Assembly (NCBI GenBank): GCA_017507905.1
Contig: JAFWAA010000021.1
Coordinates: forward strand, 1-38,182
Direction: 5' to 3'
Source: Clostridia bacterium
GTDB lineage: Bacteria > Bacillota > Clostridia > Oscillospirales > CAG-272
Length of the DNA stretch: 38,182 nt
Part shown: piece after piece, positions 4,198-37,993 of the stretch
How the letters are laid out: the number at the start of each line of letters is the position of its first letter
How positions within the stretch are numbered: position 1 is the stretch's first letter
The notes under the pieces: generated by a model
The model's database searches: none
The model's input: only the letters and a program-made list of their open reading frames with translations
What the model was told of the DNA's origin: nothing
Program-made: the position numbers and the translations under genes

Positions 4198-4227
4198 TCG
4201 CGGCGTGTGGGGAAGACGAGGATTTTT

Positions 4228-4447
4228 GTGGGGGACTTTTTGAAAAAAGTCCCCCACACCCCCCCAAAAACTCCCCAAACAAAAATATGGCTACCCATGA
4301 AAGGAAGTGCGAACAACGCGCTTCCTTTTTTTGTGTGGTGAGGGGGAGTTTTCGCGTACCCGCACTGCAATACAGACTCCGGTTTCTGCCCCGCTCGCTT
4401 ATAGACTTCTTCGAAGCCTCGCCCTACGGGGTGTTTGCGAATAGAGG
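4228..4447 (+). repeat. Element A, copy 2 (3' of the sbcC-like gene, terminator-like)
   Basis: Full-length sense copy. The first hairpin has arms GTGGGGGACTTTTT / AAAAAGTCCCCCAC (4228-4257). A second hairpin with arms GGAAGTGCG / CGCGCTTCC is followed by seven Ts, like an intrinsic terminator. AAAACTCCCC before it and GGGGAGTTT after it are complementary and could enclose it. The copy ends in CTTCGAAGCCTCGCCC. As the only recognisable terminator after the sbcC-like gene, it probably ends that transcript. Confidence 0.8.
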
Positions 4448-4995: not shown

Positions 4996-5208
4996 TATTC
5001 GCTCACTTCCCGTAGGGCGAGGCTTCGAAGAAGTCTATAAGCGATCGGGGCACAAACCAAAATCTGCGCCGCACAAACGGCGAGCGAAAACTCCCCTTGA
5101 AGGCATAGAAAAAGGAAGCGCGTTGTTCGCACTTCCTTCCATGGGTATCTATTCCTTTTTTGGGGAGTTTTGGGGGAGCTCGAGGGGACTTTTTCAAAAG
5201 TCCCCTCG
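4996..5208 (-). repeat. Element A, copy 3 (3' of the GH-like gene)
   Basis: Full-length copy, sense to the minus-strand gene ending at 5281. Its first hairpin uses arms CGAGGGGACTTTT / AAAAGTCCCCTCG (5181-5208), a paired change relative to the GTGGGGG version. A partial duplicate of the hairpin (CTTTTTCAAAAGTCCCCTCG) follows at about 5243-5262, between this copy and the gene. Confidence 0.8.
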
Positions 5209-5280
5209 AATAACCGCGTCCCCCACAAAAACCGCGCGGCTTTTTCAAAAGTCCCCTCGAATAAATCTCTCACCTCTGCG

Positions 5281-7313: not shown

Positions 7314-7404
7314 CACCTTTGTTCGCACTTCCTTTTTTTCGTATCTATTCCTCTTTTGGGGAGTTTTTGGGAAGCGCGAGGGGCCTTTTTCAAAAGGCCC
7401 CTCG
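7314..7404 (-). repeat. Element A, copy 4 (truncated, 3' of pmbA)
   Basis: Only the 5' half of the element is present on the minus strand. The first hairpin, CGAGGGGCCTTTT / AAAAGGCCCCTCG (7377-7404), carries a paired A-T to C-G change. The copy breaks off within the second hairpin, leaving GGAAGTGCGAAC. The hairpin starts 17 bp after the pmbA stop and may serve as its terminator. Confidence 0.75.
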
Positions 7405-20970: not shown

Positions 20971-21183
20971 TTCGCCGACACTCTGTAGGGCGAGGCTTCG
21001 AAGAAGTCCATAAGCGATCGGGGCAGGAACCAAAGTCTGCACCGCACAAACGGCGAACGAAAACTCCCCTTGAAAGCATAGAAAAAGGAAGCACGTTGTT
21101 CGCACTTCCTTCCGTGGGTAGCCAATCCTATTTTTGGGGAGTTTTGGGGGGGCGTGGGGGACTTTTTTCAAAAAGTCCCCCAC
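20971..21183 (-). repeat. Element A, copy 6 (3' of the DUF4173 gene)
   Basis: Full-length copy, sense to the minus-strand DUF4173 gene. The first hairpin, GTGGGGGACTTTTT / AAAAAGTCCCCCAC, is at 21154-21183, 27 bp after the gene's stop. The second hairpin and U run follow on the minus strand. Confidence 0.8.
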
Positions 21184-24237: not shown

Positions 24238-24299
24238 GATAGGGGGTTATCTTGCGAGACACGGTCTCGCCGTATAGAAAGCAAACCCCGTTACTCCCG

Positions 24300-24508
24300 C
24301 TTTTTCTTTTGCCCATGTAGGCCCAAAAGAAAAAGCTTGGCAAAAAGAAAACGGCCGAGGGGAGAGTTTCGCGCGTTGCGACGCGCGACCAAGGCTACGC
24401 GCCTTGGATGGGCGCCCACTGGCGTGGGGGCTGCAAACGCGCTAACGCGCGGTACGTAGCCGCTTTGTGCGTCTGACGCGCTCACGCGCGAGGCAACACT
24501 CCGCTTAA
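24300..24508 (-). repeat. Element B, copy 1 (3' of the YifB/ComM gene)
   Basis: In plus coordinates the four hairpins are P4 CTTTTTCTTTTG / CAAAAGAAAAAG (24300-24335), P3 CGCGCGT-tgcg-ACGCGCG (24370-24387), P2 CCAAGGC-tacgc-GCCTTGG (24389-24407) and P1 CCCAC-tggc-GTGGG (24415-24428). It is in sense orientation to the preceding minus-strand gene, whose TAA stop (24505-24507) lies in GTTAAGC, a motif also found at the start of copy 4. Confidence 0.8.
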
Positions 24509-27113: not shown

Positions 27114-27140
27114 GGAAAAGAGAATATGGATGGGTTTATT

Positions 27141-27360
27141 CGAGGGGACTTTTGAAAAAGTCCCCTCGAGCTCCCCCAAAACTCCCCAAACAAAAAGAAT
27201 AGCTACCCATGGAAGGAAGCGCGAACAACGTGCTTCCTTTTTTTGTGCGGCATAGGGGAGTTTTCGTTCGCCGTTTGTGCGGTACAGATTTTAGTTTGTG
27301 CCCCGATCGCTCGTGGACTTCTTCGAAGCCTCGCCCTACGGGGTGTTGGCGAATAGTGGG
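27141..27360 (+). repeat. Element A, copy 7 (3' of the LRR lipoprotein gene)
   Basis: Full-length sense copy. The first hairpin has arms CGAGGGGACTTTT / AAAAGTCCCCTCG (27141-27168). The second hairpin, GGAAGCGCG / CGTGCTTCC, is followed by a T run. It runs straight into element B copy 2. Confidence 0.82.
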
Positions 27361-27590
27361 GAAAAATAAAATGTGTTGCACAAAGCGGCTACGCGACGTG
27401 CGATAGCGCGCCCGCCGCACGAAACGGCTGCGTACTGCACCTCGCTTTGGGAAAGCCCCACCGCAAGGTGGCGCAGGTGGAGGGCGCGTAGCCCTCCTCG
27501 CCGTCCGCAGACGGCGAAACGATCCCCTCGGCCGTTTTATTTTTGCCAAGCTTTTTCTTTTGGGCCTACATGGGCAAAAGAAAAAGCGGA
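27361..27590 (+). repeat. Element B, copy 2
   Basis: P1 CCACC-gcaa-GGTGG (27458-27471), P2 GGAGGGC-gcgta-GCCCTCC (27479-27497), P3 CGCCGTC-cgca-GACGGCG (27499-27516), P4 CTTTTTCTTTTG / CAAAAGAAAAAG with a 12-nt loop (27551-27586). Relative to copies 1 and 4, stems P1 and P2 differ in both arms while the P2 loop GCGTA is kept; P3 differs in both arms from the other three copies while its loop CGCA is kept. Confidence 0.82.
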
Positions 27591-27630
27591 GGTGGGAAGG
27601 CGTGCAAAATTAGCGGTAATTTTGAAATGA

Positions 27631-29109: not shown

Positions 29110-29317
29110 AGCCCCGCGCGAGGCGAGGCTTCGAAGAAGTCCATGAGCGAGCGGGGCAGAAACCGGAGCCTGTATTGCAGTAACGGTACGCGAAAACTCC
29201 CCTTTGCCGCACGAAAAGAGGAAGCGCTATGTTCGCACTTCCTTCCGAGGGTAGCAATCCTTTTTGTTTGGGGAGTTTTTGGGGGGCGTGGGGGACTTTT
29301 TCCAAAAAGTCCCCCAC
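29110..29317 (-). repeat. Element A, copy 8 (upstream of the GT4-CsaB gene)
   Basis: Full-length copy, antisense to the following gene. The first hairpin, GTGGGGGACTTTTT / AAAAAGTCCCCCAC, is at 29288-29317. It fills most of the gap between the divergent HTH gene and the GT4-CsaB gene; the rest of the gap shows the HTH promoter and nothing else clear. Confidence 0.8.
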
Positions 29318-33585: not shown

Positions 33586-33600
33586 ATGTTTGCGTTTTTT

Positions 33601-33820
33601 GTGGGGGACTTTTTGGAAAAAGTCCCCCACACCCCCAAAAAACTCCCCAAAAAAAGAATAGATACCCACGGAAGGAAGTGCGAACAACGTGCTTCCTTTT
33701 TTTGTGCGGAGAAGGGGAGTTTTCGTTCGCCGTTGCTGCAGTACAGATTTCAGTTTGTGCCCCTCCCGCTCGCGGACTTCTTCGAAGCCTCGCCCTACGG
33801 GGTGTTTGCGAATGGTGGGG
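33601..33820 (+). repeat. Element A, copy 9 (3' of rarA)
   Basis: Full-length sense copy. The first hairpin is at 33601-33630 (GTGGGGGACTTTTT type). The second hairpin, GGAAGTGCG / CGTGCTTCC, is followed by a seven-T run. It continues directly into element B copy 3, as copy 7 does into B copy 2. Confidence 0.82.
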
Positions 33821-34055
33821 GAGGAGTAAAAATGCACGGCACAAGGCAGCAACGCGACGTGCGAGAGCGAGCTCGCCGCATAATGGGTGTGTTGCTTCGC
33901 GCGTGAGCGCGGTGGAAAGCCCCACCGCCAGGTGGCGCAGGTGGAGGGCGCGTAGCCCTCCTCGCGCGTCGCAACGCGCGAAATATTCTCCCGGCCGTTT
34001 TCTTTTTGCCAAGCTTTTTCTTTTGGGCCTACATGGGCAAAAGAAAAAGCGGAGG
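33821..34055 (+). repeat. Element B, copy 3
   Basis: P1 CCACC-gcca-GGTGG (33922-33935), P2 GGAGGGC-gcgta-GCCCTCC (33943-33961), P3 CGCGCGT-cgca-ACGCGCG (33963-33980), P4 CTTTTTCTTTTG / CAAAAGAAAAAG (34014-34049, 12-nt loop). It mixes the P1/P2 type of copy 2 with the P3 type of copies 1 and 4. A GGCTCCC-type hairpin follows near 34109-34128. Confidence 0.82.
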
Positions 34056-34143
34056 TAGGAGCGCTGAAATGCAAGACGGCTGTTGGTTTTGGGCGGAAGT
34101 ATCGTTAGGCTCCCTCTCAGGGGGAGCCTTTCGTTAACCCCCT

Positions 34144-34359
34144 CTATTCGCCAACACCCCGTAGGGCGAGGCTTCGAAGAAGTCCACGAGCGGGAGAGGC
34201 AGAGACCAAAATCTGCTCTGCACAAACGTCGAGCAAAAACTCCCCTTGAAGGCATAGAAAAAGGAAGCACGTTGTTCGCCCTTCCTTCCGAGGGTAGCAA
34301 TCCTTTTTGTTGGGGAGTTTTTGGGGGGCGTGGGGGACTTTTTTCAAAAAGTCCCCCAC
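34144..34359 (-). repeat. Element A, copy 10 (upstream of dnaA)
   Basis: Full-length copy in inverted orientation to copy 9. The first hairpin (34330-34359) lies about 90 bp from the dnaA -35 box. A9, B3 and A10 thus fill nearly all of the rarA-dnaA gap. Confidence 0.8.
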
Positions 34360-34515: not shown

Positions 34516-35886
34516 ATGGCAGAGCAGAATTACATCGAGGAGATCAAGGAAGTCTGGGAAATGGTCAAGACGTCCTTAAAGGATAAATTTTCCGAGACCG
34601 CCATCAATCTCTGGCTTGGTGATATTCGCATCTTGTCCTTTGAGACCGACGTGATCACCATGGGCATCGATTCTGAGCTGAAGTTCAAGATCGTCCAGGA
34701 AAAATACGTTCCCGAGGTCGAGAGCGCGTTCAGCCGTCTTTTAGGATATGAGATCCGCGTGCATCTCACCTTCACAGGGTCCTCCGTGGCGGCCGACCGC
34801 ATTTCCTCCGAGCCCGCTCCCGCGCAAAAGAAGGAGCCCACCCCCCTGCAAAAGGCGGCTATGCTCCCCAATTACAACTTTGAATACACCTTTGAAAACT
34901 TCATTGTGGGAAGCACCAACAAGTTTGCGCAGGCGGCCTGCATCTCGGTGGCCAACAACCCCGCCACCAACTACAACCCCCTCTTTATCTACGGCAACAG
35001 CGGACTGGGAAAGACTCACCTCATGTACGCGACCATCAACCGCTTAAAGGAGAACAACCCCAACATCAACATCATCTACACCAAGGGCGAGGATTTCGTC
35101 AACGAGATGGTGGCCTGCCTTTCCTCCAAGACCATGGAGGAGTTCCGCGAGAAGTACCGCAAGTGCGACGTTCTGATGATCGACGACATTCAGTTCATCG
35201 CGGGAAAGACGGGTACGCAGGAGGAGTTCTTCCACACCTTCAACGCGCTTTACGAGTGGCGCAAGCAGATCATTCTCACCTCCGACCGTCCGCCCTGTGA
35301 CATCAAACCCCTGGAGGACCGTCTCAAGACGAGATTTGAGTGGGGACTTCTGGCCGACATCGAGCCGCCGGATCTGGAGCTTCGCGTGGCCATCATCAAG
35401 AAGAAGGCCGAGCAGGTCAACGTGGTGATCCCCAATGACGTGCTGACCTTCCTTGGCGAAAACCTGCGCTCCAATATCCGCCAGATCGAGGGCGCGATCA
35501 AAAAGCTGGGGGCTTTGACCTTCCTCTCGGGAAGACAGATCACCATGGATCTTGCGCACGATTGCATCTCCGAGCTGCTCGGCGGCGCCGAGCCCGTGAG
35601 CGTAACGGTGGAGAAGATCTTCAGCGTGGTCAACGAGAAGTACGGCGTTTCCAAGGATGAGCTGGCAGGACCTAAGAGAAACAAGGAGATTGCGGCCGCA
35701 CGGCACATCTGCATCTTCCTGATCCGCGAGCTGACCGAGATGTCCTTCCCCAACATCGGAAAGCTTCTGGAGCGAGACCACACCACGGTCATGTCCTCCT
35801 ACAACAACTCCTTCACGCGCTATCAGCTTGAGCCCATGTTCACGCTTGAGATGAACGAACTGAAAAAGGAGCTCAGCGGCGAATAA
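34516..35886 (+). CDS. dnaA: Chromosomal replication initiator protein DnaA
   Basis: A 456-residue DnaA with the usual four domains: the N-terminal self-association domain (1-90), a short Pro/Glu/Lys-rich linker, the AAA+ domain with Walker A GNSGLGKT (160-167) and Walker B LMIDD (D223, D224), and the DNA-binding domain (about 345-456) with basic-loop R388 and the signature R-D421-H-T-T-V. After HTTV the usual (I/L/M)-H-A is M-S-S, so the position equivalent to E. coli H439 is Ser, and the loop before the signature is one residue short compared with E. coli and B. subtilis. GAAAGGAG precedes the ATG. Confidence 0.97.
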   Translation: MAEQNYIEEIKEVWEMVKTSLKDKFSETAINLWLGDIRILSFETDVITMGIDSELKFKIVQEKYVPEVESAFSRLLGYEIRVHLTFTGSSVAADRISSEPAPAQKKEPTPLQKAAMLPNYNFEYTFENFIVGSTNKFAQAACISVANNPATNYNPLFIYGNSGLGKTHLMYATINRLKENNPNINIIYTKGEDFVNEMVACLSSKTMEEFREKYRKCDVLMIDDIQFIAGKTGTQEEFFHTFNALYEWRKQIILTSDRPPCDIKPLEDRLKTRFEWGLLADIEPPDLELRVAIIKKKAEQVNVVIPNDVLTFLGENLRSNIRQIEGAIKKLGALTFLSGRQITMDLAHDCISELLGGAEPVSVTVEKIFSVVNEKYGVSKDELAGPKRNKEIAAARHICIFLIRELTEMSFPNIGKLLERDHTTVMSSYNNSFTRYQLEPMFTLEMNELKKELSGE

Positions 35887-35925
35887 AACGGGATTTTTTT
35901 AAGAGATCCACAGAGAAAATTCCCG

Positions 35926-36136
35926 TTTTCCACAAGCTTTTCCACACCTGTGGAAAAGCTGTGCAAAACCCAACGAATTCCTGTTGATCCGCGTGCCCGA
36001 GGAAAGGAAAATTCCCTTGCGGCGCAAGAAAAAGGAAAACGGGAAAACCGAATTTTCCCTCTTGTGGAAAACCAACCGTTTTTCCCCATCTTCGACCAAA
36101 AAAACCGCTTTTCCACAAGGAAAACGCTGTGGAAAA
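35926..36136. other. oriC: DnaA-box cluster between dnaA and dnaN
   Basis: Six exact TTTTCCACA 9-mers: forward at 35926-35934, 35938-35946 and 36109-36117; reverse at 35949-35957, 36063-36071 and 36128-36136. The second and third form a perfect inverted pair with two bases between. Near-matches continue at 36238-36246 (TTTTCCACC). Position between dnaA and dnaN matches the B. subtilis-type origin. Confidence 0.88.
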
Positions 36137-36312
36137 GAAGGACGGAAGGAAGAAAAGCAAGCCCGTTTTCCAAAACGGCTTCTCCCTTCCCGCTCTTTCG
36201 GGGAGGGGAGAGGGTTTTCCAAAAGGTTTCCCCTTCGTTTTCCACCGCTTTTCCCAAGGGTAATCAACAGGCCGAGCGCCGAGGATCCCTTGCGCGTCAA
36301 GGCGAGATCGAG

Positions 36313-36368
36313 TTTTCCCCAGTTTCCACAGGCCCTACTTCTACTACTGCTATTTTACTGTATATACC
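36313..36368 (+). other. Basal origin unwinding module (boxes, GC spacer, DnaA-trios, AT-rich DUE)
   Basis: Two adjacent boxes, TTTTCCCCA (36313-36321) and GTTTCCACA (36322-36330), are followed by GGCC (36331-36334). Triplets CTA CTT CTA CTA CTG CTA (36335-36352) come next, reading as 3'-GAT-type DnaA-trios on the opposite strand, then AT-rich TTTTACTGTATATA. This order (box, GC-rich, trios, AT-rich) is that of the B. subtilis basal unwinding system. Confidence 0.82.
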
Positions 36369-36525
36369 GTCTTTCCTCTTCCGCTTCGCGGAAAGCGAGC
36401 GAGAGAGGGACCGAAACGCTTTGCGGCATTTTCCCAAAGAGCGGAAAGTGCGAAAACGGAAATCTCTGCCGAGGGGCGGAGAGAACGCCTTATTTTTGAT
36501 GAACGTTTTGAAAGGATAGAATATT

Positions 36526-37677
36526 ATGAAGATCATTCTGAACCGTCTGGCCATCAGCGAGGCCGTAGCCCCCTTGATGTGTGCGATCTCGGGAAAATCC
36601 ACCCTCTCTGCCATTGAGGGCATTCTGATCGATGCCACGGGCGAGGACACCTGCACCATGACCACCTTTGACCTGGAGAAGGGTATGCGCATCACGGTTG
36701 CCGCAGAGATCTGCGAGCCGGGTGCAGCCATCGTCAACGCGCAAAAGTTCGTGCAGACGCTGCGCGTGATGGAGGGGGATTTCGTCACCCTTACGGTGGA
36801 CGAGAAGAACCTGGCCTGCATCGAGAGCGGAAAGTCGGTGCATCGCATGAATTCGCTTCCCGCAAGCGAGTATCCCACGGTTCCGCGCCTTGTCACCGAG
36901 GACGGCTTTGTCATTGGCCAGTCCGTACTTAAGGAGATGCTGACCAAGGTGATGCACGCCATGGCCTCCAACGATCAGCGTCCCGTGCTGAACGGCTGCT
37001 TCTTCCGCATTGAGGAGGGAAGACTGATGGCGGTGTCCTGCGACAGCTTCCGTCTGGCGAAGTGTGCGGTCAGCACCGAGATTGAGAACAAGAACGAGGA
37101 CGGCTCGGATCTGCGTTTTTCCTTCATCATTCCCACGAAGACGGTGGGCGAGCTTTACAAGCTGCTCAAGGACGACGAGCGCGAGACGGTTCGCATTTAC
37201 CTGTCGAGAAAGACCATCGTGTTCAACATTGGCAGCATGATTTTCTTCTCCCGTCTGATCGAGGGGCAGTACATTGATTTTGACCGCATCATTCTCAACA
37301 CGCACCGCATTTTTGCCACGGTGAACCGCGAGGAGCTGATCGCGTCCTTGGACAGAGCGGCGCTTGTCACCGAGGAGAAGGTGGCGGGAAGCGTACGCTC
37401 GCACGTCAAGCTGTTGTTTGAGGGCAACCTGCTCAAGATCAGCGCGATCTCGGCTTTGGGAAGCACGTATGACGAGATGGAGATCGAGCACGAGGGCATT
37501 GACCTGTTGATTGCGTTCAACAACCGATTCCTGATCGACTGCTTGCGCGCGTCGGACGAGGAGAAGGTAAGGATTTCGATGACGTCGGCGCTGACGAGCA
37601 TTAACGTAGAACCTGCAGAGAAGAAGGAGGACAGCGAGGAGCTGTTCATGCTTCTCCCGGTCAGAATGAAGGAGTAA
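36526..37677 (+). CDS. dnaN: DNA polymerase III sliding clamp, beta subunit
   Basis: A 383-residue beta clamp of three repeated domains. Supporting segments are MKIILNRLAISEAV, the CMTTFDLEKG turn, SASEYPT-like LPASEYPTVPRL, the VLNGCFF domain-2 strand, SCDSFRLA, and the C-terminal FMLLPVRMKE that forms part of the partner-binding pocket. GAAAGGA lies nine bases before the ATG. The usual downstream genes (S4-domain protein, recF, gyrB) do not follow within the 500 bp available; structured repeats do. A promoter near 36350-36366 is possible but overlaps the unwinding region. Confidence 0.97.
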   Translation: MKIILNRLAISEAVAPLMCAISGKSTLSAIEGILIDATGEDTCTMTTFDLEKGMRITVAAEICEPGAAIVNAQKFVQTLRVMEGDFVTLTVDEKNLACIESGKSVHRMNSLPASEYPTVPRLVTEDGFVIGQSVLKEMLTKVMHAMASNDQRPVLNGCFFRIEEGRLMAVSCDSFRLAKCAVSTEIENKNEDGSDLRFSFIIPTKTVGELYKLLKDDERETVRIYLSRKTIVFNIGSMIFFSRLIEGQYIDFDRIILNTHRIFATVNREELIASLDRAALVTEEKVAGSVRSHVKLLFEGNLLKISAISALGSTYDEMEIEHEGIDLLIAFNNRFLIDCLRASDEEKVRISMTSALTSINVEPAEKKEDSEELFMLLPVRMKE

Positions 37678-37768: not shown

Positions 37769-37957
37769 GTTAAGCCGCAGCACAATGCGGCTACGTACCG
37801 CGCGTGAGCACTTTGCAGCCCCCACGCCAGTGGGCGCCCATCCAAGGCGCGTAGCCTTGGTCGCGCGTCGCAACGCGCGAAAAAACCTCGGCGTTTCTCT
37901 TTTGATAACTTTTCTCTTTGCGCCCGCGGTGTCAAAGAGAAAAGTGGCTATGGGGGC
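37769..37957 (+). repeat. Element B, copy 4 (3' of dnaN)
   Basis: P1 CCCAC-gcca-GTGGG (37821-37834), P2 CCAAGGC-gcgta-GCCTTGG (37842-37860), P3 CGCGCGT-cgca-ACGCGCG (37862-37879), P4 CTTTTCTCTTTG / CAAAGAGAAAAG with a 12-nt loop (37909-37944). P4 differs from the other copies in both arms and in its loop, yet pairs perfectly. Confidence 0.82.
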
Positions 37958-37993
37958 TGAAACGCAAGGGGGCTATTGACTTATCCACCGCAT

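Follow-up and report, generated by a model that had tools for sequence, protein, structure and literature searches.

The four-copy intergenic element of this stretch of Clostridia DNA (38,182 nucleotides in all, hereafter the window) belongs to one lineage of a large, apparently undescribed family of dispersed, non-coding, MITE-like mobile repeats in Clostridia. Comparative sequence makes us nearly certain that, on the strand and in the orientation given here, the sequence is maintained to form three hairpins, P1, P2 and P3, and in this genus a predicted H-type pseudoknot with 8-10 base triples; outside the lineage of the window's own genome, P1 is predicted to carry 3-5 triples as well. Mobility and a constrained fold are both supported. 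The explanation that best covers the whole, and which we consider probable, is a mobile MITE-like repeat with a constrained triple-helix fold that would insert at terminators and act as RNA. The parts of the copy under study and the other three copies in the window lie as follows.

33907..34066, plus strand: conserved core of type A, the copy under study (covariance model R1, 121.9 bits, E = 5.8e-31)
33920..33935, plus strand: P1 hairpin in the own-genome form without a U tract, read from the sequence
33943..33961, plus strand: P2 hairpin, GGAGGGC-GCGTA-GCCCTCC; both-side changes in 7 of 7 P2 pairs
33963..33980, plus strand: P3 hairpin, CGCGCGT-CGCA-ACGCGCG; both-side changes in 5 of 8 P3 pairs
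33993..33996, plus strand: 5' strand of S1, GGCC, predicted pseudoknot partner of 34026-34029
33998..34007, plus strand: predicted third strand TTTTCTTTTT, parallel Hoogsteen partner of the purine arm
34014..34025, plus strand: pyrimidine arm of S2 (first annotated as P4), CTTTTTCTTTTG
34026..34029, plus strand: 3' strand of S1, GGCC, inside the P4 loop
34038..34049, plus strand: purine arm of S2 (first annotated as P4), CAAAAGAAAAAG
24283..24444, minus strand: type A copy 3' of yifB/comM (R1, E = 1.6e-31); third strand 24342-24351, S2 24324-24335 with 24300-24311, S1 24353-24356 with 24320-24323
27442..27603, plus strand: type A copy 3' of the LRR gene (R1, E = 2e-31); third strand 27535-27544 with one mismatch, A for C, S2 27551-27562 with 27575-27586, S1 27530-27533 with 27563-27566
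37806..37961, plus strand: type B copy 3' of dnaN (R1, E = 1e-34); third strand 37894-37903, S2 37909-37920 with 37933-37944, S1 GGCG 37890-37893 with CGCC 37921-37924

Direct reading and placement of the parts by script found the four copies where the initial annotation had put them, in the common order P1-P2-P3-P4. R1, a covariance model built from 53 copies of the genus, including three of the four window copies and leaving out the one annotated from 27361, recovered all four as full copies at the E values given above. Its five other matches were weak: four were partial and fell on the P4 palindrome read from the opposite strand, and the fifth had E = 0.047. The extent first drawn for the element contains the conserved core, about 160 nt in the window, but its 5' portion of about 85 nt is other, mosaic repeat sequence. 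The GCGTA and CGCA loops, described as unchanged, are so in the four window copies but vary in other copies and in relatives. Likewise, the position 3' of a gene in sense orientation holds in the window (yifB/comM, LRR, rarA and dnaN, by Pfam) but is no rule of the family: among copies with tandem flanking genes, two copy sets pooled, 33 were sense and 18 antisense according to a home-made gene caller. This caller, which is not a validated gene finder and was used alongside a home-made hairpin scan, placed no gene over any copy (77 of 77 and 66 of 66).

The window holds other repeats too. A separate repeat of about 100-120 bp that ends in ...GACTTCTTCGAAGCCTCGCCCTACGGGGTGTT.. lies 5' of own copies at 27250-27350 and 33710-33830 and is found inverted near 34145-34200, downstream of the copy annotated from 33821, giving a nested mosaic. 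A different hairpin (about GTGGGGGACTTTTT..AAAAAGTCCCCCAC), preceded on one strand by a U tract, has nine window copies (385-414, 4227-4258, 5180-5209, 7377-7404, 21154-21183, 27140-27169, 29288-29317, 33600-33631 and 34330-34359); by eye the length of its U tract equals that of the A run in 6 of 9, and it may be a P1-like triplex repeat. Since dnaA and dnaN lie between copies (34516-37677), the window may span a replication origin region.

That the two arms of the stems change together was borne out strongly in larger alignments. In the alignment A1, both-side changes were counted in 278 cells against a shuffle mean of 87; none of 500 shuffles reached that number, and sliding the arms left at most 72. 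P1-P3 across the order had 99.3% of cells paired and both-side changes in 22 of 24 pairs. A1 omits 24 of 77 copies: 15 from the own genome for redundancy, 8 that lack the module or are odd or clipped (in L044, L056, L081, L130, L140, L149 and L160), and 1 lost to clipping; four of its reference ranges were trimmed by hand. From the A2 counts, 19 of 85 matches, weak or partial, were omitted. G-U pairs are very rare in the element, unlike in typical RNA families: A1 holds 19 G-U and 27 A-C against 1755 Watson-Crick pairs, A2 11 and 4 against 2290, and A3 9 and 1 against 1413. As a test of which strand folds, the ratio of G-U to A-C is weak, being 7 to 6 in A1 (pairs at least 85% Watson-Crick) beside the values just given for A2 and A3.

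P4 had been annotated as a hairpin. The hairpin is present, but it appears to form only half of a pseudoknot, and the annotation had missed a U-rich strand that lies 5' of it. Directly 5' of P4 stands TTTTCTTTTTG in type A and TTTCTCTTTTG in type B, the mirror image of the pyrimidine arm of P4. Because it mirrors that arm, we assign it as the predicted parallel Hoogsteen third strand on the purine arm (T.A-T and C.G-C). A search pattern that allowed C or T at three positions of each tract, hence 64 combinations, found 89 sites, spread over 8 of 40 genomes with the own genome among the eight, and these used four combinations only, each an exact mirror pair. A pattern search gave 153 matches, 64 of them without a perfect hairpin and 24 of these 64 not full mirrors; we read most non-mirror matches as chance matches in other phyla and two as decayed copies of the element in L129, which likewise violate the mirror rule. 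In A1 the parallel rule held in 530 of 530 cells (53 copies), against 400 for the antiparallel rule, 241-347 for shifted ones, and a mean of 453 and a maximum of 478 in 1000 row shuffles; the search pattern fixes 7 of the 10 columns, so that the information lies in the three varying columns only, and the cells of kindred copies are not independent events.

A further 66 copies came from model matches in other genomes and were unselected for the third strand, to which the model gives no pairing score. Sixty of them had exact third strands. Among the six exceptions, three lacked a parsed S2 (two of these look truncated or decayed) and three had one mismatch, situated once in the third strand and twice in the purine arm. 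In the own genome 22 of 23 third strands were exact, the exception being the copy annotated from 27361. Over both sets there are nine third-strand haplotypes, which are 8-10 bases long and carry one or two C at varying positions, and the product of the chance matches of every C position across the nine is about 2.6e-11. The third strands are mirrored, not inverted, so palindromes alone cannot explain the pattern. By reasoning, mirror symmetry is not produced by copying or strand switching, and some folded single strand would therefore be under selection. The initial annotation had named, as one of the findings that would overturn it, a described mobile repeat whose palindromes account for everything; the family does turn out to be a mobile repeat (MITE) in relatives, but the palindromes fall short of the mirrored third strands.

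An upstream tract accompanies P1 as well. A U tract stands 5' of P1 in relatives that lie outside the own-genome lineage; own-genome copies lack it. Among 192 copies given from the genus and the order, 143 were parsed, and in 137 of these the length of the tract equalled the length of the A run of the P1 hairpin; the 49 copies without a parsable P1 and third strand include 40 from the first genus set, which contains own-type copies without a U tract. A first count of lengths had given 40 equal among 44 parsed of 77. The base that follows the tract was C in 50 of 58 copies whose purine strand continues with GG and in 0 of 79 otherwise (Fisher p = 2.5e-29, the sequences being related). In L278, L279 and L317 the purine run starts with G and the third tract, by eye, with C. 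Outside the own-genome lineage P1 would thus have a short third strand of its own with 3-5 triples, which gives the relatives two predicted triple helices. These observations bear on the idea that the element is an ordinary palindromic repeat (REP/BIME or tandem terminators), with arms matched by strand-switch correction and a U-rich tract that is a low-complexity coincidence. Such correction would yield nearly perfect, G-U-poor stems like those seen here, but nine mirror-matched haplotypes and the C/GG association at P1 make this idea very improbable.

The P4 loop opens with four bases that pair with four bases 5' of the third strand. All four Watson-Crick pairs of this helix, S1, were present in 129 of 136 parsed copies (out of 143, offsets of up to 2 bases being allowed), and scrambled loops reached four pairs in 4.4%. 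Six pair forms occur, GGCG/CGCC, GGCC/GGCC, GGCA/TGCC, GGTG/CACC, GCCC/GGGC and AGCG/CGCT, of which the last three were seen once each, so that changes at pairs 1-3 rest on single copies. S1 and S2 are both supported by covariation. P4 and S1 are predicted to combine into a pseudoknot of the H type with a triple helix like that of telomerase, loop 1 being the third strand that would cross the deep groove of stem 2. By structural reasoning this topology fits only the strand given here; the opposite strand would put the third tract in loop 3, on the shallow-groove side. By eye an outer stem (CUC../..GAG) surrounds the pseudoknot.

We also weighed a DNA repeat of the PIT/ITxF kind, an intrastrand triplex that is kept by chance or mutation bias and is only an obstacle to replication that destabilises loci. 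Its strand order, Hoogsteen-pyrimidine-purine in class IV of ITxF according to the available text of PMC4666352, is the order seen here. The triplex of the present element, however, is a module of a conserved multi-hairpin element with a covarying pseudoknot (S1) and mobility of its own, and the reasoning on the origin of mirror repeats applies here too; we regard such a repeat as unlikely.

Copies of this element are numerous. BLAST of the copy annotated from 33821 against its own genome gave 28 matches, some of which are pieces of one copy, and the 23 distinct copies in which the P4 module could be read divide into 13 type A and 10 type B copies. R1 gave 34 matches in the own genome at E 0.001, including weak partial matches on the opposite strand. 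The search of related Clostridia genomes with a covariance model, which the initial annotation had proposed, did find matches: at E 0.001, 30 of 35 genomes of the genus matched, 23 with a best E < 1e-25 and 7 weakly only, and 5 had none; counts per genome reached at least 84, weak opposite-strand partials included. At E 1e-7, where the P1-P2-P3 core is what matches, R1 matched 31 of the order's 245 genomes, the own genome included, spread over 22 of its 127 genera; in the class it matched 8 of 291 genomes, of which two lie outside the order. The loci read in other families of the order keep the P1-P2-P3 core and differ in the 3' module. G430, which belongs to another order, has a short-loop hairpin 3' of the core, and by eye the tract upstream of this hairpin mirrors its arm in 6 of 7 copies. 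Among the matches listed, genus copies are from uncultured Clostridia and Oscillospiraceae, mostly of animal gut by record titles.

Rfam gave no match in the window at the gathering threshold and, at relaxed limits, only NsiR9 (E = 0.37) and BASRCI153 (E = 0.13), both far below gathering scores. A phage collection searched with L189 and a plasmid collection searched with L264 yielded no match, and viral contigs yielded one match to one P1 pattern. Searches of the open-licence literature by sequence strings and by topic returned nothing on this repeat family or on a pseudoknotted intrastrand triplex repeat. The initial description as a structured RNA or a single-stranded DNA substrate of no named family therefore stands, with covariation in larger alignments and no Rfam family. 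Several copies of the own genome (G000) lie at or near the ends of contigs C5, C37, C43, C49 and C63. Assemblies are therefore probably interrupted by the repeat, and there may be more copies than were counted. At six loci of other families, two core elements lie on opposite strands about 60-190 nt apart, tail-to-tail in L265, L317, L318, L319 and L328 and head-to-head in L279.

Evidence for mobility comes from the relatives. In G042, G020, G044, G012 and others, the element reaches as far as inverted ends of the CAGACTGTAGACAAAA...GTCTACAACCTG type; the terminal inverted repeats are of the type CAGACTGTAGAC(A/C)AA...TTT(G/T)GTCTACAACCTG and enclose no coding capacity, as in a MITE. Of 143 copies searched with end patterns, 33 matched at both boundaries, and 31 of these measure 232-246 bp; the own genome and the first genus set contributed none of the 33. 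By eye, own copies have neither such ends nor duplicated hairpins. The same hairpin stands at both boundaries in 25 of the 33 two-ended copies (alignment score of at least 15; shuffled pairs gave a median of 7, a 99th percentile of 14 and a maximum of 47). A's precede the left hairpin in 13 of 24 and T's follow the right hairpin in 12 of 24, giving AAAA-hairpin-element-hairpin-TTTT, the arrangement to be expected if a single AAAA-hairpin-TTTT terminator were split open and its hairpin copied. By eye, the two boundary loops are direct copies in some elements and reverse complements in others. One empty site was found: the site in G048 orthologous to locus L224 of G020 has one hairpin, then TTTTTGTATG, and no element. 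It follows from this site that the insertion duplicated a whole stem-loop, and the comparison of sequences makes it very likely that in several relatives an element of about 235 bp is flanked immediately on both sides by copies of one terminator hairpin. In G016, a relative of the window, no element follows the LRR gene, and yifB is followed by a type B copy where the window has type A. Direct repeats round the elements in other families of the order had a median of 8, equal to the control (8), and 4 of 31 loci exceeded the 99th percentile of the control (12), with scores of 14, 21, 25 and 28. Of 47 matches listed for G020, none is evidently a long, autonomous version of the 235-bp element.

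As for the mover, pieces of a PF13751 transposase were found in 2 of 12 carrier genomes and relatives of P0001 in 2 of 35 genomes; PF13751 (DDE_Tnp_1_6) is a family that we take to be linked to IS1182. In G012, a transposase C-terminus at L283 is followed by ...CGTCTACAGTCTG and directly by a terminator hairpin, and L284 is a 304-bp unit with a C-terminal transposase piece between element-type ends. Transposase relics also lie beside an element-type end in G042. These remnants suggest, as the likelier course, that an IS1182-type transposase recognising hairpins moves the element, a step that we infer because no full-length transposase was found in the genomes searched. A REP-like element moved by a Y1 (IS200/RAYT) transposase would be palindromic, intergenic and present in many copies, as this element is. 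PF01797 (Y1 transposase), however, had no match in the element-rich genomes G000, G001, G008, G013 and G016 (incomplete assemblies), where the Y1 transposase and the element were uncorrelated, and Y1 enzymes are not known to make long hairpin duplications; this candidate is highly improbable.

The following course of events is proposed. One strand would fold into the hairpins P1-P3, with the loop-1 third strand on S2. An IS1182-type transposase would recognise a terminator hairpin, insert the unit of about 235 bp and double the stem-loop, and the insertion would part the upstream hairpin from its U tract while an intact terminator is kept downstream. Because the intact terminator stays downstream, a sense copy would become part of the transcript and enter its 3' UTR. 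There the triple helices might protect the 3' region of the transcript from exonucleases, which would make the insertion tolerable. That sense copies join 3' UTRs, where their triple helices most likely act as RNA and shield transcripts, is a suggestion to which we give slightly less than even weight. RNA seems, modestly, the likeliest acting form; the excess of sense copies among tandem genes, 33 of 51, is mild, and this and the rarity of G-U pairs weigh against it.

The main rival is that the fold acts as single-stranded DNA in replication or transposition, for recognition by the transposase or choice of strand, and has no function in transcripts. Both orientations occur, the stems are nearly perfect without G-U, and the P1-P3 core is a repeat in many genera, all of which would suit a DNA fold. 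A transposase, however, needs the ends only, and the core modules persist despite differing flanks; G-U exceeds A-C in A3 (9 to 1); and at neutral pH C+.G-C triples are weaker in DNA. IS1182-type elements do recognise DNA stem-loops, according to the available text of PMC5678879 and PMC4923244, and we give this rival a substantial minority probability. Returning to action as RNA, we tentatively propose a new class of natural nucleic-acid element, a bacterial transposable 3'-UTR module with two triple helices, their third strands betrayed by parallel (Hoogsteen) covariation, that is put into terminators genome-wide, by which dozens of transcripts may gain an ENE-like signal for 3' protection or processing.

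Natural triple helices have usually been found through structure determination. Here selection on a third strand is indicated by comparative sequence alone, by mirror changes in nine haplotypes and by C standing only opposite G. If our explanation is right, the family would offer a set of natural variants on which triple helices could be tested in cells, a structural code that can be searched in other genomes, and a documented case of whole stem-loop duplication by hairpin-targeted transposition. It would also mean that gut Clostridia contain a repeat, seemingly without annotation so far, that changes the ends of genes and may break up the assemblies of these bacteria.

Several known systems resemble parts of the element. 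PIT and class IV ITxF sequences, as given in the available text of PMC4666352, likewise have a 5' Hoogsteen pyrimidine tract, a pyrimidine arm and a purine arm on one strand, and the pseudoknot module has the Hoogsteen-Y-R order with a stem within 6-15. ITxF loops measure 1-6 nt, whereas the apical loop here is 12-13 nt in most genus copies and pseudoknotted; the ITxF minimum is 6 triples, above the 3-5 predicted for P1; and the triplex here sits within a larger conserved element. The word pseudoknot is absent from the main text of PMC4666352 as available. Short-loop mirror triplex hairpins of the type GTTTTCTTTTTG-CTA-CTTTTTCTTTTG-CGC-CAAAAGAAAAAG-TAG, resembling ITxF class IV, were noticed at L029, L043, L108, L055 and other loci, which belong to Selenomonadaceae, Bacteroides and, with an imperfect arm, Mucilaginibacter.

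The pseudoknot of telomerase RNA contains a pyrimidine-motif triple helix in which loop 1 pyrimidines lie in the deep groove of stem 2. The H-type topology is the same here, whereas this element has 8-10 predicted triples, tens of dispersed copies and no template. In ENE RNA stability elements, triple helices near the RNA 3' end block decay. ENE and the present element share U-rich and A-rich strands in a triple helix near a 3' end; here, however, the A-rich strand is part of a hairpin and not of a poly(A) tail, the element is bacterial, and the function is putative. The guanidine-III riboswitch pseudoknot (PMC5696562) also combines an H-type fold with a triple helix, and no ligand-linked gene accompanies the element here.

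In transposition, the closest systems are IS1272 and TnSha1 of the IS1182 family, which, in the available text of PMC5678879 and PMC4923244, insert at stem-loops irrespective of their sequence and delete or replace the target stem-loop with no duplication; confirmed terminators make up several of these targets. They share with the present element the stem-loop or terminator target, and DDE_Tnp_1_6 matches the remnants that carry the element's ends. Here, in contrast, the stem-loop is duplicated and not lost, and the unit is non-coding, about 235 bp long and internally folded. In the available text of PMC5678879, Wan et al. drew duplication of the whole stem-loop as a possible pathway b, and the stem-loop duplications in relatives of the window correspond to the product that this pathway predicts.
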